Below, one piece after another: positions 47,915 to 64,000 of a DNA stretch of 64,000 bases (the first letter of the stretch is position 1; every line of letters begins with the position of its first letter). Source of the stretch: Cellulophaga algicola DSM 14237 (lineage in GTDB: Bacteria; Bacteroidota; Bacteroidia; Flavobacteriales; Flavobacteriaceae). The DNA is taken from contig NC_014934.1 of NCBI RefSeq assembly GCF_000186265.1, forward strand, positions 62,001-126,000, written 5' to 3'. The notes beneath the pieces were generated by a model that saw nothing but the letters and a program-made list of their open reading frames with translations, did no database searches and was not told where the DNA came from. The translations under genes and the position numbers were made by a program.

Positions 47915-49684
47915 ATGCAAAACATAACCCGACTCTTTGATTTTCCTTATTATCAGCTAGAAAAGTACAACCTTGAAAAATCTCTAGTGACTAAAACAGA
48001 TGGGAAATGGGTTGCAACATCAACAAAAGAGTATTTAGAAAAAGCAAATACTATAAGTAGAGCTTTATTGCGATTAGGAGTTAAACCTAATGAAAAAATT
48101 GCCCTTATCTCTTCTGAGAATAGAACAGAGTGGAATATTATGGATATTGGTATCCTCCAATTAGGTGCGCAAAACGTTCCTATTTATCCAACAATATCTG
48201 AAGATGATTATGCGTATGTTTTAAATCATTCTGAAGCAACCTATTGTTTTGTTTCTTGTGCAGACGTATATGAAAAAATTAAAAAAATAAGGCATGAAGT
48301 CCCTAATTTAAAAGAAGTGTATTCTTTTAATCAATTAGAAGATTGTAAAAACTGGTCCGAAGTTTTAGAATTAGGAAAAGATACCACCAATCAAAATGAA
48401 GTAGATGCTTTAAAAGAAGCTGTTAAATCTACCGATTTAGCTACTTTAATCTATACTTCAGGAACAACAGGAAAACCTAAAGGTGTTATGCTTTCTCATG
48501 AAAACATAGTGAGTAACGCATTAGGTAGTTTTAAAAGAATACCTATAGAATTAGGTAAATCTAGAGCTTTAAGTTTTTTACCACTATGCCACGTTTACGA
48601 GCGCATGTTAATCTATTTATATCAATATTGTGGGTCTACAATTTACTATGCCCCTATAGATCAGATAAGCGAATATGCTCAGGAAACCAAGCCACATGTA
48701 ATGACAGCGGTTCCTCGATTATTAGAAAAAGTGTATGATAAGATTATCGCAAAAGGCACATCTTTAACAGGTATTAAAAAGAAATTATTCTTTTGGTCAG
48801 TAGATATTGGCCTACACTATGAGCCTTACGGTAAAAATGGTTGGTGGTACGAACAGAAGTTAGCCCTCGCTAGAAAATTAATCTTTAGCAAATGGAAAGC
48901 TGCTTTAGGAGGTGAATTATCGGTAATGGCTTCTGGGAGTGCAGCACTGCAACCGCGTTTAGCTCGTATCTTTAATGCTGCAGAATTTGGCGTTATGGAA
49001 GGCTACGGTTTAACAGAAACATCTCCTGTAGTTTCTGTTAACGACATGAGAAATGGTGGATTTAGAATTGGAACAGTAGGTAAACCAATTGACAGAACAG
49101 AAGTTAAAATTGAAAGTGATGGTGAAATATGTATTAAAGGCCCACAAGTAATGCTAGGGTACTTTAAAGATGACGCTAAAACTAAAGAAGTTATCATCAA
49201 TGGTTATTTTCACACTGGAGATATTGGAGAAATTGATGCCGATGGTTTCTTAAAAATTACCGATCGTAAAAAAGAAATGTTTAAAACATCTGGTGGTAAA
49301 TATGTAGCTCCGCAGTTATTAGAAAACAGATTTAAGCAATCTAGATTTATAGATCAAATTATGGTTATTGGAGAAGGTGAAAAAATGCCTGCTGCATTTA
49401 TTCAACCTGATTTCGAGTTTATTAAAAATTGGGCTAAAATTCACAACGTAACTATTACCAGTAATGAAGACCTTGTAAAGAATGAAAAGGTGATTGCTAG
49501 AATTCAAGAAGAAGTAGATGATGCCAATACAAACTTCGCAAAATGGGAAACGGTGAAACAATTCCGATTAACACCAGATGCATGGAGTGTTGAAAACGGA
49601 CACCTGACCCCTACCCTAAAATTACGTCGTAAAATTGTCAAAGAGAAATACGTAGAATTATACAATGACATTTACGGACATTAA
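47915..49684 (+). CDS. fadD: long-chain acyl-CoA synthetase (AMP-forming)
   Basis: A 589-residue adenylate-forming enzyme that activates fatty acids to acyl-CoA. The P-loop-like signature TLIYTSGTTGKPKGVMLSHE (about 176-195), the second motif GYGLTETSPVVSVN and the A8-type motif TGDIGEIDADGFLKITDRKK are all in order. No signal peptide; cytoplasmic or peripheral. It is a separate unit but lies one gap upstream of the beta-oxidation operon, so it probably supplies its substrates. The symbol is by family analogy. Confidence 0.93.
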   Translation: MQNITRLFDFPYYQLEKYNLEKSLVTKTDGKWVATSTKEYLEKANTISRALLRLGVKPNEKIALISSENRTEWNIMDIGILQLGAQNVPIYPTISEDDYAYVLNHSEATYCFVSCADVYEKIKKIRHEVPNLKEVYSFNQLEDCKNWSEVLELGKDTTNQNEVDALKEAVKSTDLATLIYTSGTTGKPKGVMLSHENIVSNALGSFKRIPIELGKSRALSFLPLCHVYERMLIYLYQYCGSTIYYAPIDQISEYAQETKPHVMTAVPRLLEKVYDKIIAKGTSLTGIKKKLFFWSVDIGLHYEPYGKNGWWYEQKLALARKLIFSKWKAALGGELSVMASGSAALQPRLARIFNAAEFGVMEGYGLTETSPVVSVNDMRNGGFRIGTVGKPIDRTEVKIESDGEICIKGPQVMLGYFKDDAKTKEVIINGYFHTGDIGEIDADGFLKITDRKKEMFKTSGGKYVAPQLLENRFKQSRFIDQIMVIGEGEKMPAAFIQPDFEFIKNWAKIHNVTITSNEDLVKNEKVIARIQEEVDDANTNFAKWETVKQFRLTPDAWSVENGHLTPTLKLRRKIVKEKYVELYNDIYGH

Positions 49685-49723
49685 TCATTTTTGTAGGTTC
49701 TAAAATACATAAGTTCAAGTAAC

Positions 49724-49778
49724 AATGCCAATACGATACGCAGTAGAAATGCAGATTGTATTGGCATTATTATTTTTA
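49724..49778 (+). terminator. terminator of the acyl-CoA synthetase gene
   Basis: An 11-bp perfect stem (49724-49734 with 49758-49768) with a 23-nt loop, then ATTATTTTTATA. The long loop lowers certainty. Confidence 0.65.
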
Positions 49779-50077
49779 TACTTCAGCCTAAAATAAAGCT
49801 ACGTTGCTTCACTTACGAGAACCCATACTCAGACCTAGATACTATGCATTTTCTCTCCCCTGCATTCCCTCATAAATTAATTTTTCTGTAGAAATATAGG
49901 ATAAACGAACCAAATGAAGTCTAAACTTACCACGCTATTGCTACGAGTAGAAAATTTCTTACAAAAATTAACTTACTTTTATAATTAATTAGGCTACAGT
50001 ACGTTAAAACCTTAGCGTATTGTATTATTTTAGAATATTGATTTAAAAAATAACCATCAGCATCAAAAAAATTACAT
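49779..50077 (+). other. AT-rich intergenic region upstream of the MarR operator
   Basis: About 300 nt with no convincing ORF, RNA or repeat. It leads directly into the 28-bp palindrome that precedes the marR-type gene, so upstream regulatory sites are possible but none is recognised. Confidence 0.4.
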
Positions 50078-50105
50078 AAATTTATTATGCATGCATAATA
50101 AATTT
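50078..50105. promoter_or_regulatory. perfect 28-bp palindrome, probable MarR operator
   Basis: Bases 50078-50105 equal their own reverse complement with no mismatch; the core is TTATTATGCATGCATAATAA. The right edge is 3 nt before the -7 promoter element, so a dimeric regulator bound here would cover the -33 region. Its place directly in front of the MarR-family gene makes it the natural autoregulatory operator. Confidence 0.8.
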
Positions 50106-50108
50106 TAC

Positions 50109-50116
50109 TATATTTG
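50109..50116 (+). promoter_or_regulatory. promoter -7 element of the beta-oxidation operon
   Basis: TATATTTG fits TAnnTTTG and lies 17 nt upstream of the ATG at 50134. The expected -33 position falls in the palindrome. Confidence 0.6.
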
Positions 50117-50133
50117 AGTTCTATAAATAATGT

Positions 50134-50586
50134 ATGAAGGAGCTTACAATAGATTATGCTTTAAGAGCTACATGGCAAGCTGTTGCCAGAATGTATAACG
50201 AAGAAGCTAAAAATTTTGAAACTACCATGGCGGTAGGTTTCACTTTATTGAGCATTGATCCTAAAACAGGTACCCCTTCTACTGCATTAGGTCCTAAAAT
50301 GGGAATGGAAGCAACCAGTCTGTCTCGCATACTAAAAAGTATGGAAGAAAAAGGATTGATTATTAGAAAACCCAATCCAAATGATGGAAGAGGTGTTTTA
50401 ATTCACCTAACGCCATTTGGCTTAGAAAAAAGAGTAGATTCAAAAAATGTTGTCCTTCGCTTTAACGAAGTGGTTAAGGATAGCGTTCAAGAAGATCAAT
50501 TAAATGGTTTTTTCAAAGTTATGGATACCATTAATAAACTGGTTATAGATAAGAAAATTTACACTAAAGATTCAAAAACAATTTAA
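50134..50586 (+). CDS. MarR-family transcriptional regulator
   Basis: A 150-residue winged-helix regulator. The recognition helix and wing are visible: MEATSLSRILKSMEEKGLII then RKPNPNDGRGVLIHLTPFGL (the conserved D-x-R of the MarR wing). It is the first gene of a unit with the 3-hydroxyacyl-CoA dehydrogenase (5-nt gap), thiolase and acyl-CoA dehydrogenase genes. It most likely represses the operon through the upstream palindrome and is released by an acyl-CoA or fatty acid; the ligand is inferred from the operon only. Confidence 0.92.
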   Translation: MKELTIDYALRATWQAVARMYNEEAKNFETTMAVGFTLLSIDPKTGTPSTALGPKMGMEATSLSRILKSMEEKGLIIRKPNPNDGRGVLIHLTPFGLEKRVDSKNVVLRFNEVVKDSVQEDQLNGFFKVMDTINKLVIDKKIYTKDSKTI

Positions 50587-50591
50587 TCGTA

Positions 50592-53006
50592 ATGAATTCG
50601 ATGAATAAACACATTAAAAAAGTAGCCGTTGTTGGTTCTGGAATTATGGGAAGTGGCATAGCATGTCATTTCGCAAATATCGGAGTTGAAGTATTATTAC
50701 TAGATATTGTACCTAGAGAACTTAATGAAAAAGAAAAAGCCAAAGGCTTTACGCTTGAAGATAAGGTGGTCCGCAATAGATTGGTAAATGATTCATTAAT
50801 CGCAGCATTAAAATCTAAGCCATCTCCTATTTACAATCAGAAATTTGCTGATCGTATTACAACAGGAAATCTTGAAGATGATATAGCAAAGGTTTCTCAG
50901 GTAGATTGGATTATTGAAGTTGTAGTTGAAAGACTTGACATTAAAAAGATGGTCTTTGAAAATTTAGAAAAGCACAGAAAACCCGGTACACTTATTACCT
51001 CTAACACATCAGGTATTCCAATTCACTTTATGAGTGAAGGGCGTAGTGAAGATTTCCAGAAACATTTCTGTGGAACGCACTTCTTTAACCCTGCACGTTA
51101 CTTAAAACTTTTTGAAATAATCCCTGGACCTAAAACTTCACCAGAAGTATTAGATTTCTTAAATGGTTATGGTGAGCAATTCTTAGGAAAAACTTCTGTA
51201 ATTGCTAAAGATACTCCTGCTTTTATTGGAAACAGAATAGGTATTTTTAGTATCCAAAGTCTCTTCCATATGGTAAAAGATTTAGGAATGACGGTTGAAG
51301 AAGTAGATAAATTAACAGGACCCGTTATTGGTCGTCCAAAATCAGCAACATTTAGAACTGTTGATGTGGTAGGATTAGATACTTTGGTTCATGTTGCTAA
51401 CGGAATTGCAGAAAATTGCAAGGACGATGAGAAATTAGACTTATTTAAATTGCCTACGTTCATCAATACCATGATGGAAAACAAATGGTTGGGTAGTAAA
51501 ACAGGTCAAGGTTTTTACAAAAAATCTAAAGATGCTAAAGGCAAAACAGAAATCTTAACGCTTGATTTAGACACGATGGACTATCGTGCAAGTAAAAAAG
51601 CAAGTTTCGCTACTTTAGAATTAACGAAGACTATTGATAAAGTAGCTGATCGTTTTAAAGTATTAGTAGCAGGAAAAGATAAAGCTGGTGAATTTTACAG
51701 AAAGAGTTTTGCTGCATTATTTGCTTATGTATCGCATAGAATTCCAGAAATAACGGATGAGCTTTATAAGATTGATGATGCAATGAAAGCTGGATTTGGT
51801 TGGGAACATGGACCTTTCCAAATTTGGGATGCTATTGGTATAGAAAAAGGTATTGAAATTATGAAGGCAGAAGGAGAAACTCCTGCTGCTTGGGTAAATG
51901 ATATGCTTGCTAGTGGAACAAAATCATTCTACGCAGTAAAAGACGGCGCTACTTATTTTTATGATATTCCTAAAAAAGCTATAGAAAAAGTTCCAGGTCA
52001 AGATTCATTTATCATTTTAGATAATATTAGAAAGTCTAAAGAAGTTTTCAAAAACAGTGGTGTTGTTGTAGAAGATTTAGGTGATGGAATCCTTAATGTA
52101 GAATTCCAATCTAAAATGAATACCATTGGTGGTGATGTTCTTGCGGGTTTAAATAAAGCTATAGATATTGCTGAGAAAGATTTCCAAGGATTAGTTGTTG
52201 GAAACCAGGCACCAAACTTCTCTGTAGGTGCTAACATCGGGATGATTTTCATGATGGCCGTAGAACAAGAGTATGATGAATTGAACATGGCGATTAAAAT
52301 GTTCCAAGATACGATGATGCGTATGCGTTATTCTGCAATACCAACCGTAGCTGCTCCTCACGGAATGGCACTAGGTGGTGGTTGTGAGCTTTCATTACAC
52401 GCAGACATGGTCGTAGCTGCAGCAGAAACTTATATTGGTTTAGTAGAATTTGGTGTTGGTGTCATCCCTGGTGGTGGTGGTTCTAAAGAATTTGCTGTAA
52501 GAGCACAAGACCAATTCCATAAAAACGATGTTGAATTAAATGTACTTCAAGAATATTTCTTAACAATAGGTATGGCTAAGGTCTCTACCTCAGCATATGA
52601 AGCCTTCGATTTAGGAATTTTACAAAAAGGTAAAGATATCGTAGTTGTTAATAAAGACCGTCAAATTGCTACGGCAAAGGCACATGCTAAGTTAATGGCT
52701 GAAGGTGGGTATACGCAACCGGTAAAACGTAAAGACATTAAAGTTTTAGGAAAACAAGCTTTAGGAATGTTCTTAGTAGGTACAGATTCCATGGAAGACA
52801 GTAAATACATTAGTGAGCACGACAAAAAGATTGCTAATAAATTAGCGTACGTTATGGCTGGTGGAGATTTATCGGAACCTACGTTAGTTACAGAGCAATA
52901 TTTATTAGATCTAGAGCGTGAAGCATTTTTATCTCTTTGTACAGAACGTAAAACATTAGAAAGGATTCAGCATATGTTGAAAACAGGAAAACCTTTAAGA
53001 AACTAA
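50592..53006 (+). CDS. bifunctional 3-hydroxyacyl-CoA dehydrogenase / enoyl-CoA hydratase (FadN-type order)
   Basis: An 804-residue beta-oxidation enzyme. The dehydrogenase is N-terminal: NAD motif GSGIMGSGIA (15-24), then HFFNPARYLKLFEIIPG with the catalytic histidine and GFYKKSKDAKG. The hydratase/isomerase domain is C-terminal (about 490-700): APHGMALGGGCELSLHADMV and YIGLVEFGVGVIPGGGGSKE, keeping both glutamates expected for hydration. This order is the reverse of enterobacterial FadB/FadJ and matches Bacillus FadN. It could start at ATG 50592 or 50601. It follows the regulator by 5 nt. Confidence 0.94.
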   Translation: MNSMNKHIKKVAVVGSGIMGSGIACHFANIGVEVLLLDIVPRELNEKEKAKGFTLEDKVVRNRLVNDSLIAALKSKPSPIYNQKFADRITTGNLEDDIAKVSQVDWIIEVVVERLDIKKMVFENLEKHRKPGTLITSNTSGIPIHFMSEGRSEDFQKHFCGTHFFNPARYLKLFEIIPGPKTSPEVLDFLNGYGEQFLGKTSVIAKDTPAFIGNRIGIFSIQSLFHMVKDLGMTVEEVDKLTGPVIGRPKSATFRTVDVVGLDTLVHVANGIAENCKDDEKLDLFKLPTFINTMMENKWLGSKTGQGFYKKSKDAKGKTEILTLDLDTMDYRASKKASFATLELTKTIDKVADRFKVLVAGKDKAGEFYRKSFAALFAYVSHRIPEITDELYKIDDAMKAGFGWEHGPFQIWDAIGIEKGIEIMKAEGETPAAWVNDMLASGTKSFYAVKDGATYFYDIPKKAIEKVPGQDSFIILDNIRKSKEVFKNSGVVVEDLGDGILNVEFQSKMNTIGGDVLAGLNKAIDIAEKDFQGLVVGNQAPNFSVGANIGMIFMMAVEQEYDELNMAIKMFQDTMMRMRYSAIPTVAAPHGMALGGGCELSLHADMVVAAAETYIGLVEFGVGVIPGGGGSKEFAVRAQDQFHKNDVELNVLQEYFLTIGMAKVSTSAYEAFDLGILQKGKDIVVVNKDRQIATAKAHAKLMAEGGYTQPVKRKDIKVLGKQALGMFLVGTDSMEDSKYISEHDKKIANKLAYVMAGGDLSEPTLVTEQYLLDLEREAFLSLCTERKTLERIQHMLKTGKPLRN

Positions 53007-53100: not shown

Positions 53101-53136
53101 AACTCCCTCTCCTCTGGAGAGGGTTGGGGAAAGGAT
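53101..53136. repeat. REP-like hairpin immediately upstream of the thiolase ATG
   Basis: CCCTCTCC (53105-53112) pairs with GGAGAGGG (53116-53123) around TCT, followed by TTGGGGAAAGGATT and the ATG at 53138. The G-rich tail may double as ribosome binding site. A related hairpin precedes the next gene at 54411. Confidence 0.6.
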
Positions 53137-53137
53137 T

Positions 53138-54328
53138 ATGAAAACAGCATATATAGTAAAAGCATATAGAACAGCAGTCGGTAAAGCTCCAAAAGGGGTA
53201 TTCCGATTCAAAAGAACAGATGAATTAGCCGCAGAGACCATTCAGTATATGATGAAAGAGCTGCCGCAATTAGATAAAAAACGAATAGATGATGTTATTG
53301 TAGGGAATGCAATGCCAGAAGGTTCTCAAGGACTGAACATGGCGCGTTTAATTTCTTTAATGGGATTAGATATTGTTGATGTTCCTGGGGTTACCGTTAA
53401 CCGTTTTTGTTCTTCTGGTATTGAAACTATCGGTATTGCAACAGCAAAAATACAAGCCGGAATGGCAGATTGTATTATCGCGGGTGGTGCAGAAAGTATG
53501 AGTTCTGTTCCTATGACAGGAAATAAGCCAGAATTAAATTATGACTTAGTAAAATCTGGTCATGAAGATTATTACTGGGGAATGGGTAATACAGCAGAAG
53601 CCGTTGCCAATCAATTTAAAGTATCTCGTGAAGATCAGGATGAGTTTGCCTACAACTCACATATGAAAGCTTTGAAAGCACAAGCAGAAGATCGTTTTCA
53701 AGATCAAATTGTTCCTATAGATGTAGAACAAATTTATGTAGATGAAAACGGTAAAAAAGCTACAAAAAAATATACGGTTACAAAAGATGAAGGCCCTAGA
53801 AAAGGAACTAGCAAAGAAGCCCTAGCAGGTTTAAGAGCTGTTTTTGCTGCTGGTGGTAGTGTTACCGCTGGTAACTCTTCTCAAATGAGTGATGGTGCTG
53901 CATTTGTACTTGTTATGAGTGAAGAGATGGTAAAAGAATTAAATATTGAACCAATTGCTCGTATGGTAAACTATGCTGCAGCTGGTGTTGAGCCACGTAT
54001 CATGGGTATAGGTCCTGTAAAAGCAATTCCGAAAGCCTTAAAGCAAGCTGGATTAAAGCAGGAAGATATTGAGTTAATAGAATTGAACGAAGCATTTGCT
54101 TCACAATCTCTTGCTGTTATGCGTGAACTTAAATTAAATCAAGATATCGTAAACGTAAATGGTGGCGCAATTGCATTGGGTCATCCACTAGGGTGTACAG
54201 GAGCTAAACTTTCCGTACAACTTTTTGACGAAATGCGTAAGAGAAATATGCAAGGAAAATATGGTATGGTAACCATGTGTGTAGGTACTGGGCAAGGTGC
54301 TGCAGGAATCTATGAATTCTTAAAATAA
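53138..54328 (+). CDS. acetyl-CoA C-acyltransferase (3-ketoacyl-CoA thiolase)
   Basis: A 396-residue thiolase catalysing the last step of beta-oxidation. The acyl-accepting cysteine is in VNRFCSSGIETI (about residue 90). The histidine is in GGAIALGHPLGCTGA, the second cysteine in MCVGTGQGAAGIYE. It follows the FadN-type gene by 131 nt, a gap filled by repeat-like hairpins rather than a terminator, so the operon is probably continuous. Equivalent to FadA of the Bacillus fadNAE operon. Confidence 0.95.
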   Translation: MKTAYIVKAYRTAVGKAPKGVFRFKRTDELAAETIQYMMKELPQLDKKRIDDVIVGNAMPEGSQGLNMARLISLMGLDIVDVPGVTVNRFCSSGIETIGIATAKIQAGMADCIIAGGAESMSSVPMTGNKPELNYDLVKSGHEDYYWGMGNTAEAVANQFKVSREDQDEFAYNSHMKALKAQAEDRFQDQIVPIDVEQIYVDENGKKATKKYTVTKDEGPRKGTSKEALAGLRAVFAAGGSVTAGNSSQMSDGAAFVLVMSEEMVKELNIEPIARMVNYAAAGVEPRIMGIGPVKAIPKALKQAGLKQEDIELIELNEAFASQSLAVMRELKLNQDIVNVNGGAIALGHPLGCTGAKLSVQLFDEMRKRNMQGKYGMVTMCVGTGQGAAGIYEFLK

Positions 54329-54339
54329 CAAATCCCATT

Positions 54340-54434
54340 TTAAGCTTTCTCCTATGGGAGGACCTTTAAAAAAATAAAAATCTTAACTTAAAATAACACA
54401 TATCTATTCTCTTTCCTTTGGAAAGGGTTAGAGA
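54340..54434. repeat. second pair of hairpin repeats between the thiolase and acyl-CoA dehydrogenase genes
   Basis: CTCC-TATG-GGAG (54349-54360) and CTTTCC-TTT-GGAAAG (54411-54425) followed by GGTTAGAGATAAG. The second copies the layout of the 53105 hairpin (pyrimidine arm, TTT/TCT loop, purine arm, GGTTRGRG tail) at a similar distance from the next ATG. Confidence 0.55.
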
Positions 54435-54451
54435 TAAGAAAATTAACAACA

Positions 54452-56251
54452 ATGGCAGAAAAAGAAATACTACGTGGCGGTCAGTTTTTAGTAAAAGAAA
54501 CGAACTGTGAAGATATCTTTACGCTCGAAGATTTATCGGAAGAGCAAAAAATGATGCGAGATAGCACCAAAGAATTCGTAGATCGCGAACTTTGGGCACA
54601 CTGGGAACGCTTTGAGAAAAAAGATTACGCATATACGGAAGAAACTATGCGTAAAGCGGGTGAACTTGGCTTATTAAGCGTAGCGGTTCCAGAATCTTAC
54701 GGAGGAATGGGTATGGGTTTTGTCTCTACCATGTTAGTATGTGATTATATTTCTGGTGCTACAGGTTCTTTTAGTACTGCTTTTGGTGCGCATACTGGTA
54801 TTGGTACTATGCCAATTACGTTATATGGTACTGAGGAACAAAAACAAAAATACGTTCCTAAATTAGCCTCTGGTGAGTGGTTTGGTGCTTATTGCCTTAC
54901 TGAACCGGGTGCAGGTTCTGATGCTAACTCTGGTAAGACCAAAGCGGTTTTATCTGAAGACGGCAAACACTATAGTATTTCTGGTCAAAAAATGTGGATT
55001 TCAAATGCAGGTTTCTGTAGTGTATTCATAGTTTTTGCTAGAATTGGTGATGATAAAAATATAACAGGATTTATTGTTGAGAATGATCCTAGTAATGGTA
55101 TTTCTTTAGGTGATGAAGAAAAAAAATTAGGAATTCATTCTTCTTCTACGCGTCAAGTATTCTTTAATGAAACAAAGGTGCCTGTAGAGAATATGCTTTC
55201 TGATAGAGGAAACGGATTTAAAATTGCGATGAATGCGCTTAACGTAGGTAGAATTAAATTAGCTGCGGCTTGTTTAGATGCGCAACGTCGTGTTATTGGT
55301 GAGGCTACTAAATACGCTAACGAGCGTATTCAGTTTAAAACACCTATCATAAACTTTGGTGCTATAAAAGCTAAAATAGCGAATATGGTTACTAATGTTT
55401 ATGCTGATGAATCTGCTGCCTATAGAGCTGCTAAAAATATTGAAGACAGAATTGCAATGCGTGAAGCTGCAGGAAACTCTCATCAAGAAGCAGAACTAAA
55501 AGGTGTCGAAGAATATGCTATTGAATGTTCTATTTTAAAAGTAGCAGTTTCTGAAGATTGCCAAAGTACAACAGATGAAGGTATTCAGATTTTTGGAGGT
55601 ATGGGCTTTAGTGCAGATACACCAATGGAATCTGCTTGGAGAGATTCTCGTATTGCTCGTATTTACGAAGGTACCAATGAAATTAACCGTATGTTAGCAG
55701 TAGGTATGCTTGTTAAGAAAGCAATGAAAGGTCATGTAGATCTTTTAGGACCTGCAACTAAAGTTGGTGAAGAATTAATGGGAATACCTTCTTTTGATAC
55801 ACCAGATTTTTCTGAGCTTTTTGCTGAAGAAAAAGATTTGGTTGCTAAATTGAAGAAAGTATTTTTAATGGTAGCTGGTTCTGCCGTTCAAAAATATGGT
55901 GCTGAATTAGAGAACCACCAACAATTGATGATGTCTGCTTCTGATATATTAATTGAAGTATATATGGCAGAATCTACGATATTAAGAACTGAGAAAAACG
56001 TAAAACGATTTGGAGAAGCGGAACAAGCTACACAAATCGCGATGTCTAAATTATATTTATATACTGCTGTAGACACTGTAATCCAAAGAGGAAAAGAAGC
56101 TATTGTTTCTTTTGCTGAAGGTGATGAGCAACGTATGATGTTAATGGGCCTTAAGCGTTTTACAAAATATACTAATAATCCTAACGTAGTAGCTTTACGC
56201 ACACAAATTGCGGATAAAGTAGCTGCAGACAACGGTTATACCTTTGACTAA
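54452..56251 (+). CDS. acyl-CoA dehydrogenase (FadE/VLCAD-like, long form)
   Basis: A 599-residue flavoprotein for the first oxidation step of beta-oxidation. The ACAD core (about 30-420) shows AYCLTEPGAGSDANSGKTKA, KMWISNAGFCSVFIVFARIG and the catalytic-base motif RIYEGTNEINRML. A C-terminal extension of about 170 residues, as in VLCAD and Bacillus FadE, probably helps membrane association or dimerisation. It is the last gene of the operon, ending in a terminator. Confidence 0.95.
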   Translation: MAEKEILRGGQFLVKETNCEDIFTLEDLSEEQKMMRDSTKEFVDRELWAHWERFEKKDYAYTEETMRKAGELGLLSVAVPESYGGMGMGFVSTMLVCDYISGATGSFSTAFGAHTGIGTMPITLYGTEEQKQKYVPKLASGEWFGAYCLTEPGAGSDANSGKTKAVLSEDGKHYSISGQKMWISNAGFCSVFIVFARIGDDKNITGFIVENDPSNGISLGDEEKKLGIHSSSTRQVFFNETKVPVENMLSDRGNGFKIAMNALNVGRIKLAAACLDAQRRVIGEATKYANERIQFKTPIINFGAIKAKIANMVTNVYADESAAYRAAKNIEDRIAMREAAGNSHQEAELKGVEEYAIECSILKVAVSEDCQSTTDEGIQIFGGMGFSADTPMESAWRDSRIARIYEGTNEINRMLAVGMLVKKAMKGHVDLLGPATKVGEELMGIPSFDTPDFSELFAEEKDLVAKLKKVFLMVAGSAVQKYGAELENHQQLMMSASDILIEVYMAESTILRTEKNVKRFGEAEQATQIAMSKLYLYTAVDTVIQRGKEAIVSFAEGDEQRMMLMGLKRFTKYTNNPNVVALRTQIADKVAADNGYTFD

Positions 56252-61803: not shown

Positions 61804-61828
61804 AAATGAAATGCTAACACTCAAAAAA

Positions 61829-63166
61829 ATGAAAAAAAAATTACTACTTTGTCTCCTTACCGCTTTTGCATCGCTGCCTATTCTAGCACAGACAGACGCT
61901 CGAATATATGAGATTATAGCTGCCGTATCTGAAGATCGCATTAAAAATGATGTGAAAACACTGACCGAATTTGGTACTAGAAATACCTTTAGTGATACGC
62001 TCTCTAAAACACGTGGAATAGGAGCTGCCAGACGCTGGATTAAATCTCAATTCAATGAAATTTCAAGCAACTGCTCTGATTGCATTGATGTCTTCTATCA
62101 GAAAGATTTTGTAACTAAAGAGATGGGTACCCGTATACCTAAAGATGCTTGGGTGGTAAATGTGGTTGCCATACAAAAAGGAACAAAATATCCAAACCGC
62201 TATATTATTATGAGTGGCGATATTGATTCTCGTGCTAGTGATACGATGGATTTTACAACTGATGCTCCAGGCGCTAATGATAATGCTAGTGGAATGGCGG
62301 GTACCATTGAAGCGGCTCGCGTGCTTTCTAAATATACTTTTGAAAATAGTATTATGTATGTAGGTTTATCAGGAGAAGAACAAGGACTTTTTGGCGGTGG
62401 CGGACTCGCAAAATACGCAGTAGAAAAAGGCTGGGATATCATCGGAATATTCAATAATGATATGATTGGTAATATTACTGGGGTTGATGGCGTTGTGAGC
62501 AATCGTGATTTTAGAATTTTCTCTGAACCTGTACCAGCTACGGAAACGGATAAAGAACGACAAATGCGTCGTTTTTATGGCGGAGAAGTAGACGGAATCT
62601 CGAGACAACTCGCACGGTATATTCACAAAAATGTAAAAACTTATATGCCAGAAATGAACCCAATGATGATCTACAGATTAGATCGTTTTGGGCGTGGCGG
62701 ACACCATAGGCCATTTAATGATGCTGGTTTTGCAGGCATCCGTATTATGGAAGCTCATGAAAATTATACCCAGCAACACCAAGATCTACGAACAGAAAAC
62801 GGTATTAATTACGGTGACGTTCTTGAACATGTAAATTTTGGCTATGCTAAAAAATTAACCGCTGTTAATGCAATAAATCTTGCGGCTTTGGCTTGGGCAC
62901 CTCCTGCTCCAAAAGAAGTAAAAATTGGTGGCATAGTAGCCCCTGCAGCAAAATTTGAATGGAGTAAGGTTGATGGTGCGGTAGGTTATAAAATATACTG
63001 GAGAGCTACTACTTCTCCTACTTGGGATCATAGCCGCTATGTTGGCAATGTAACTGAGTTTCTTCTAGAAGGTATTGTTATTGATAATTTCTTCTTCGGA
63101 ATATCATCTGTAGGTAAAGATGGTTTTGAAAGTCCGGTAGTATTCCCGAATGCTATTCTACGTTAA
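61829..63166 (+). CDS. secreted M28-family metallopeptidase
   Basis: A 445-residue exported aminopeptidase-like enzyme. ATG 61829 starts the signal peptide MKKKLLLCLLTAFASLPILA; ATG 61811 would add six residues. The M28 zinc site is visible as ASDTMDFTTDAPGANDNASG, then SGEEQGLFG with the catalytic and metal glutamates, and FNNDMIGN. HRPFNDAGFAGIRIMEAHEN follows. The C-terminal 85 residues (KIGGIVAPAAKFEWSKVDGA, GYKIYWRATTSPTW) look like a fibronectin type III domain. It would digest peptides in the periplasm or outside the cell. A convergent gene follows a shared terminator. Confidence 0.9.
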   Translation: MKKKLLLCLLTAFASLPILAQTDARIYEIIAAVSEDRIKNDVKTLTEFGTRNTFSDTLSKTRGIGAARRWIKSQFNEISSNCSDCIDVFYQKDFVTKEMGTRIPKDAWVVNVVAIQKGTKYPNRYIIMSGDIDSRASDTMDFTTDAPGANDNASGMAGTIEAARVLSKYTFENSIMYVGLSGEEQGLFGGGGLAKYAVEKGWDIIGIFNNDMIGNITGVDGVVSNRDFRIFSEPVPATETDKERQMRRFYGGEVDGISRQLARYIHKNVKTYMPEMNPMMIYRLDRFGRGGHHRPFNDAGFAGIRIMEAHENYTQQHQDLRTENGINYGDVLEHVNFGYAKKLTAVNAINLAALAWAPPAPKEVKIGGIVAPAAKFEWSKVDGAVGYKIYWRATTSPTWDHSRYVGNVTEFLLEGIVIDNFFFGISSVGKDGFESPVVFPNAILR

Positions 63167-63180
63167 TTATAAAATATAAA

Positions 63181-63219
63181 AAAGCAAAAAACCACGCCTA
63201 GGCGTGGTTTTTTGCTTTC
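63181..63219. terminator. bidirectional terminator, 38-bp perfect palindrome
   Basis: Bases 63181-63218 are an exact inverted repeat centred at CCTAGG, with A and T runs inside the arms. It separates the convergent M28 and DUF1080 genes. Confidence 0.88.
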
Positions 63220-63238: not shown

Positions 63239-64000
63239 TTACTTTAATTCTGGCGTAACTACAATACTCCTAAATTCTACTGGGCCATGATCTCCCTGAA
63301 TTAACAAAGGGCCTACTTCTGCTTCTTTACTATCTAAGGCTCCACCAGTAATTCCTGGGATTATTTGATCGGTAATAATGGCTTTCCCATTTGCGATAAT
63401 ACTCACTCGGTTTCCGTTTAGGGTAATATCATAAGACTGCCACTCCCCTGCTGGTTTCGCCATCATCTCATTTGGCGTTAGAAACCCATAAATACCTCCA
63501 AATAAAATATTAGAAGGTTCTAAGCCTATATTATCTTCAATTTGCACTTCATGACGCCCACGCAAATAAATACCACTATTGCTTCCTGCTGGATATTTAA
63601 ACTCTACGTGTAACTTAAAATTTAAGAACTTTTCATCAGACACTAAATTAGAGCCAGATTTTGGACTCGTTAAAATTCCGTCTTTCACAATCCATTGATT
63701 ATCCCCCATAGCGCTCCATCCGTTTAGACTAGTCCCATTGAAAAGTGCTTTTGGTGCTCCCCAGACAATAGCTTCATTATATACCGCCACTTTTGCTGGT
63801 GTAGCTGTCCATTTGTATTTTTTTCCATCGGAATACACCATAGTTCCAGAAAGTGTAGTACCCGCTAATGAACCTTCAAACTTCATGTCTTTATCGCCTG
63901 GTTCCCATTGTCGTGGAATAACAAAACTAAAGACCTCGTTTTTTACTTTTACTTCGGCTATAGGCCTAGAACTGCCAAAAGCATATACAAACCTTCCTAC
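63239..64000 (-). CDS. DUF1080 (3-keto-disaccharide hydrolase-like) protein, 5' end beyond the window
   Basis: The frame stays open to the right edge (VGRFVYAFGSSRPIAEVKVK at the edge), so the gene is cut and the ATG at 63886 is internal. The visible 253 residues hold a preceding beta-rich segment and the DUF1080 domain (about from FNGTSLNGWSAMGDNQWIVK through SNSGIYLRGRHEVQIEDNIG to GPVEFRSIVV). Some members of this fold bind or cleave glycosides such as 3-ketosugars. An N-terminal signal peptide cannot be checked here. Confidence 0.85.
   Translation of the reverse strand, partial: VGRFVYAFGSSRPIAEVKVKNEVFSFVIPRQWEPGDKDMKFEGSLAGTTLSGTMVYSDGKKYKWTATPAKVAVYNEAIVWGAPKALFNGTSLNGWSAMGDNQWIVKDGILTSPKSGSNLVSDEKFLNFKLHVEFKYPAGSNSGIYLRGRHEVQIEDNIGLEPSNILFGGIYGFLTPNEMMAKPAGEWQSYDITLNGNRVSIIANGKAIITDQIIPGITGGALDSKEAEVGPLLIQGDHGPVEFRSIVVTPELK

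Follow-up and report, generated by a model that had tools for sequence, protein, structure and literature searches.

A conserved palindrome as the predicted operator of a MarR-family regulator of beta-oxidation genes in Cellulophaga algicola and other Bacteroidia

A perfect palindrome precedes a marR-fadN-fadA-fadE gene cluster in the analysed window (64,000 nucleotides of the Cellulophaga algicola DSM 14237 chromosome). Given that near-identical copies of this palindrome are found before other lipid genes of the same genome and ahead of the corresponding cluster in many relatives, the palindrome very probably serves as the site through which a regulator switches fat degradation on and off. 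The comparative data strongly favour a model in which a MarR dimer, via the palindrome, would repress its own operon along with a dispersed beta-oxidation regulon, and a fatty-acid-derived ligand would release it. The relevant features of the window are as follows:

47915..49684, + strand: fadD-like acyl-CoA ligase (PF00501), the upstream neighbour, without the operator
50078..50105, no strand: predicted operator, a perfect gapless 28-bp palindrome, AAATTTATTATGCATGCATAATAAATTT, arm 14
50109..50116, + strand: -7 promoter element TATATTTG of the flavobacterial type (TAnnTTTG)
50134..50586, + strand: marR, a 150-aa MarR-family winged-helix regulator, the presumed operator binder (PF01047, PF12802)
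50592..53006, + strand: fadN-like 3-hydroxyacyl-CoA dehydrogenase/enoyl-CoA hydratase, 804 aa (PF02737, PF00725, PF00378)
53138..54328, + strand: fadA-like acetyl-CoA acyltransferase (thiolase), 396 aa (PF00108, PF02803; TIGR01930, 434.5 bits against a cut-off of 240.55)
54452..56251, + strand: fadE-like acyl-CoA dehydrogenase, 599 aa (NF058590, 726.1 bits, above the cut-off of 600)

The operon and its regulator

The kinds of genes named in an earlier sequence-only reading of this DNA are recovered by domain searches, which detect MarR (PF01047), 3-hydroxyacyl-CoA dehydrogenase/enoyl-CoA hydratase, thiolase and acyl-CoA dehydrogenase domains. The 804-aa protein falls below the cut-offs of the NCBIfam FadB and FadJ families (best match NF052272, 609.6 against 999) and its domain content fits a fadN-like protein, a label that we take from this content and from the Bacillus naming. 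Downstream of the fadD-like gene, which ends at 49684, direct reading reveals an inverted repeat (49724-49734 with 49758-49768) and a T-rich stretch, so that marR probably starts its own transcription unit; this repeat is absent from the output of the terminator scan, which permits loops of 3-8 only.

The regulator scores above the curated cut-offs for PF01047 (40.9 bits against 24.6) and PF12802 (33.6 against 27). At E 0.001 or better, its matches are MarR, MarR_2, HTH_27 and SarA/Rot, with no GntR or TetR domain among them. All 9 named NCBIfam MarR equivalogs listed (Saro_0803, BilQ, SlyA, OhrR, HpaR, MarR and others) are below cut-off, the best at 38.9 bits against 200. The AlphaFold model (mean pLDDT 84.6) adopts the MarR fold and matches MarR-type entries along its whole chain, with the flanking helices as well as the winged helix. 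At least 50 entries reach Z 14.6 in the fold search; many of their titles name MarR, SlyA, MepR or HcaR, and some titles are inexplicit. For example, the model aligns with 2yr2_B (Z 16.2, rmsd 3.2, 141 aligned), DNA-bound MepR (Z 15.7, rmsd 2.0, 135 aligned) and DNA-bound SlyA (Z 15.3, rmsd 2.3, 139 aligned).

The palindrome and the promoter

The exact 28-bp inverted repeat and the 3-nt gap between it and the -7 element, both claimed previously, are borne out by the sequence (the palindrome ends at 50105 and the element starts at 50109). In 200 first-order Markov windows simulated with the length and dinucleotide composition of the window, a gapless arm of 14 never appeared, the maximum being 12, in 2 windows. 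The window contains a single copy of the 14-bp core YTATGCRYGCATAR, against a shuffle mean of 0.01, two counts that are to be read with the fact that the pattern was picked after the site and its relatives had been seen.

The usual place of the -33 element falls within the palindrome, as the sequence-only reading had stated; by direct reading, no TTTG, the -33 consensus (PMC2483708), is visible at this place. The -7 box has been placed at -12 to -5 in Flavobacterium psychrophilum (PMC9723704), which would put the transcription start here at about 50121 and the operator at about -43 to -16. With a start near 50121, the marR start codon at 50134 follows a short leader.

Conservation in front of marR orthologues

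Relatives of the regulator are encoded in 578 GTDB stretches, of which the best 80 were kept. These 80 come mostly from Flavobacteriaceae, with titles that include Maribacter, Zobellia, Arenibacter, Muricauda/Allomuricauda, Flagellimonas, Robiginitalea and Galbibacter, three being titled just Bacteroidetes or Bacteroidia. For each locus, the 300 bp upstream were searched for the 20-mer closest to the reference TTATTATGCATGCATAATAA, with the reversed motif as the control. The sequence-only reading had staked its proposal on conservation before orthologous operons, and among these best 80 of 578 the site recurs in 80/80 at no more than 3 mismatches of 20 (0 in 50 loci, 1 in 5, 2 in 18 and 3 in 7); the reversed control gives 6-9 mismatches at the same loci. 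The same set retains the surrounding architecture: TAnnTTTG follows the 20-mer at 7 bp in 66 loci and at 8 bp in 12 (78/80 in total), fadN lies directly behind marR on the same strand in 80/80, and a fadD-like gene is located upstream in 78/80. Loci L202 and L203 carry TAnnTTTA in place of the TAnnTTTG box.

Other samples extend this picture, with counts that are not independent given that the genomes are related to each other. Among the matches listed, all 30 marR loci of relatives have the site at 5 or fewer mismatches and 29 at 4 or fewer. In a sample of the phylum, the MarR protein is detected at E 1e-30 or better in 54 of 296 genomes, and 29 of 30 marR loci carry the site with no more than 5 mismatches (L300 has 6); two of the 30 loci (L286 and L287) duplicate genomes already used. 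Among the 20 more distant marR loci fetched out of 24, 15 have the site at 5 or fewer mismatches, one (L320) has a clear core at 6, and four (L322 and L330-L332) have no site; the reversed control never falls below 6. In these distant loci, fadN is seen behind marR in 15 of 20, a weak count because just some 200-400 bp downstream were retrieved; it is unseen in the four loci that lack the site and in L323, in which the site is present.

The half-site consensus is TAYTATGC, and the inner TATGC..GCATA is almost invariant. In the best 80 of 578 loci, the TATGC and TGCATA of the dyad reach 2 bits at each position; conservation falls off upstream of the dyad, and downstream the -7 box is kept as well. 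Across 50 distinct 28-mers from 110 sites, TATGC is invariant in both arms except for one base in one arm, and the outer base adjacent to it is T or C. The inner 14-bp dyad is perfect in 85 of the 110 sites and the entire 28-bp dyad in 49. Symmetric double changes are observed (at arm position 10, in 10 of the 24 changed pairs), but at most other arm positions symmetry is not clearly above the expectation from column composition, so that selection on the dyad is argued mainly from the invariant symmetric columns.

A dispersed set of sites

A search of the complete genome (4,888,353 bases) for the core, which had been proposed as the way to define the regulon, identifies six YTATGCRYGCATAR sites, with none for the reversed control:

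Site 1: before marR-fadNAE (50078-50105 of the window)
Site 2: before a ketoacyl-synthase-III-like (KAS III-like) gene (L005:7612)
Site 3: between a divergent 4HBT thioesterase gene and a nitronate monooxygenase (NMO) + alpha/beta-hydrolase pair (L006)
Site 4: before a TonB outer-membrane receptor gene (L007)
Site 5: before a FadH/OYE-type oxidoreductase gene (L008:6886)
Site 6: in the gap that separates etfBA from a divergent transketolase-type gene, closer to etfB (L125:5973-5992)

As 20-mers, all six have their first base no more than 106 bp from the start of a gene, and the neighbours, mostly lipid or redox genes, form a coherent set; the names NMO, KAS III and FadH/OYE are loose because the scores are under the cut-offs of the NCBIfam families listed. 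The transketolase-type gene that shares its gap with etfBA reads as pyruvate dehydrogenase E1 beta, and with the site in this common gap the regulator might extend its control to the supply of acetyl-CoA. A 20-mer match with 3 mismatches at genome positions 2712-2731 is taken as chance; it lies between convergent genes and extends into the end of a coding frame.

The sites recur before the orthologues of these genes, for which at most 30 matches per search were listed and the same reversed control was used. Among the matches listed, a site at 4 or fewer mismatches precedes 26 of 30 etfB, 19 of 21 NMO, 16 of 30 KAS III, 14 of 25 TonB receptor and 4 of 6 FadH/OYE orthologues. At 5 or fewer, the last two counts rise to 19 and 5, weaker figures given that the reversed controls, with no hit at 4 or fewer mismatches, have exactly 5 in six loci. 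Two of the receptor loci (L114 and L118) read N, and the FadH/OYE reductase has an orthologue in just 6 of 40 genomes. In 12 of the 30 KAS III loci among the matches listed, chiefly outside the genus and also in the genus members L060 and L062, no site is found even at 5 mismatches. The fadD gene, although the closest lipid gene to the operon, was dropped as a regulon member since the operator is absent in 18 of 18 genus genomes, the best 20-mer in the 300 bp upstream having 6-8 mismatches, i.e., the level of the reversed control; thus, fadD serves as an internal negative control.

In the 40 genomes, the core pattern, itself derived from the sites, gives 137 matches against 5 for the control (row sum). 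Inspection of 12 further sites in relatives places two next to the gene of a GDSL-type lipoprotein (L266, L267), six before a second outer-membrane receptor gene (L268-L273), three in the genome G034 and the last beside a DUF4136 gene (L277). The six receptor sites, at about 4000 of the respective loci, belong to six genus members and precede genes for receptors of 1051-1058 aa. Their sequence is mostly GAGTTATGC(RY)GCATAACTC with GAG..CTC flanks (AAG..CTT in L268; GAGCTATGC in L273), and perhaps the GAG..CTC-flanked sites represent a separate specificity.

Proposed mechanism and alternatives

Under the proposed mechanism, a MarR dimer would bind the dyad (half-site TAYTATGC) over about -43 to -16, including the -33 region. 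Occupying this region and the spacer, the bound dimer would exclude RNA polymerase from the marR-fadNAE promoter, so that MarR would repress its own operon. The same protein would control the promoters of etfBA, the FadH/OYE-type reductase, the KAS III-like gene, the thioesterase/NMO pair and the TonB receptor. Long-chain fatty acids taken up by the cell would give rise to a ligand, probably an acyl-CoA, that frees the dimer from the DNA; acyl-CoA is our guess by analogy to other fatty-acid regulators and to CouR. We infer binding by MarR, repression and the ligand alike, and with all three putative, the support for the operator reading is comparative. The proposal of the sequence-only reading, that the palindrome is the operator through which the adjacent MarR blocks the fad operon, gains from the strong conservation and proves too narrow in scope, given the sites before other lipid genes.

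The palindrome might be bound by another transcription factor, with the MarR gene merely one of its targets. Defining a MarR orthologue as a match at 44% identity or more, at least one core site is found in 31 of the 32 genomes that encode it and in 1 of the 8 that do not, a co-occurrence that in part reflects genome reduction because small genomes fill much of the latter group. The exception, G034, is the observation that speaks for another factor: of its three core sites (L274-L276), one is next to an esterase-type gene, one precedes a short lipase-like frame at a distance of some 330 bp, and one is next to an NMO gene. At least two thus neighbour esterase or NMO genes in a genome that lacks a close MarR orthologue (the best match is weak, E 1.4e-4, with no site upstream). 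Among the orthologue-bearing genomes, G038 has only a degenerate site and no core match, and G037 has a single core site, by the DUF4136 gene, which is not a lipid gene. Against this explanation, which we consider unlikely, stand the presence of the site before the MarR gene itself in all of the best 80 of 578 loci and in 30 of 30 relatives' loci among the matches listed, and the lack of core sites in the remaining 7 genomes without the orthologue.

It is less probable still that MarR binds the sites as an activator, or as an activator at some promoters of the regulon and a repressor at others. By direct reading, the place of the operator relative to the putative -7 box varies among the targets in the C. 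algicola genome, as such a role would allow; on the marR-fad promoter, however, the dyad covers the -33 region and the spacer at a fixed distance, an arrangement that suits blocking. In three loci of another family (L333-L335, family f17), direct reading places the operator just behind the TAnnTTTG box (TAGCTTTG or TAAATTTG), not before it, a position that also suits blocking and from which the same outcome would be expected. That the palindrome functions as an RNA hairpin or terminator is suggested by the perfection of the inverted repeat and can practically be dismissed: it is located upstream of the -7 box and thus outside the predicted transcript of the operon, the region 49500-50600 has no Rfam match at the gathering threshold, the palindrome is missing from the list of terminator-like sites of the region, and the central bases, which would form the loop, are almost as invariant as the arms.

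Relationship to known regulators

MarR/SlyA-family repressors typically have a palindrome on their own promoter, and sequence and conservation point to the same arrangement here. The winged-helix fold is shared along the chain with the solved repressors of this family (MepR-DNA, 4lln; SlyA-DNA, 3q5f; RovA-DNA, 4aij; HcaR, 4rgr), although the identity is 24% or less among the matches listed and, unlike in those systems, the predicted operator is TATGC-RY-GCATA and the predicted regulon is one of dispersed beta-oxidation genes. CouR, a MarR-family protein that serves an aromatic-acid pathway, offers a precedent for a CoA-thioester ligand, judging by the entry title (5cyv with p-coumaroyl-CoA; 6c2s with DNA); the fold is similar (Z 14.9, rmsd 2.9, 140 aligned) but the identity is 19%. 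FadR, of the GntR family, and TetR-family regulators such as PsrA control beta-oxidation genes scattered over the genome. The likeness to the system described here lies in this scattered control, and the difference in the regulator, which belongs to the MarR family and for which GntR and TetR models give no match at E 0.001 or better.

The claim that no flavobacterial fatty acid operator of this sequence had been described agrees with a literature search by titles and abstract starts, with most subscription journals and bioRxiv outside its coverage, which yielded no such operator and no MarR-type fatty-acid repressor of Bacteroidota. In the searchable text, neither TTATGCATGCATAA nor a description of fatty-acid control in Bacteroidota was found. 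In F. psychrophilum, beta-oxidation genes are strongly induced in fish mucus and plasma, and the section reporting this names no regulator (PMC9723704).

The MarR protein and its TATGC-RY-GCATA operator are somewhat more plausibly than otherwise an ancient master switch of beta-oxidation throughout the class Bacteroidia, with a role like that of FadR or PsrA. Such a switch would join outer-membrane uptake (TonB receptors and, in some relatives, a GDSL-type lipoprotein) with CoA-thioester breakdown and electron transfer by etfBA, its operator having moved from the upstream to the downstream side of the -7 box in a different family with the sequence kept. The system is directly testable, as it comprises a defined operator, a candidate repressor and a regulon of six promoters, and membership in the regulon suggests roles for the TonB receptor, the KAS III-like protein and NMO, whose functions have so far been unclear.

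Other repeats in the window

The one longer perfect gapless palindrome of the window, of 38 bp and unrelated to that at 50078-50105, is located at 63181-63218 between convergent frames (61811-63166 on the + strand and another ending at 63239 on the - strand); with its G+C-rich center and runs of A and T, it most likely terminates transcription in both directions. The fadN-fadA gap (53108-53129) and the fadA-fadE gap (54412-54433) each contain a short inverted-repeat element; the two are similar, one being TCTCCTCTGGAGAGGGTTGGGG and the other a degenerate version. These are the only two of this type in the window at 3 or fewer mismatches, where none is expected, and are possibly processing or interspersed repeat elements.
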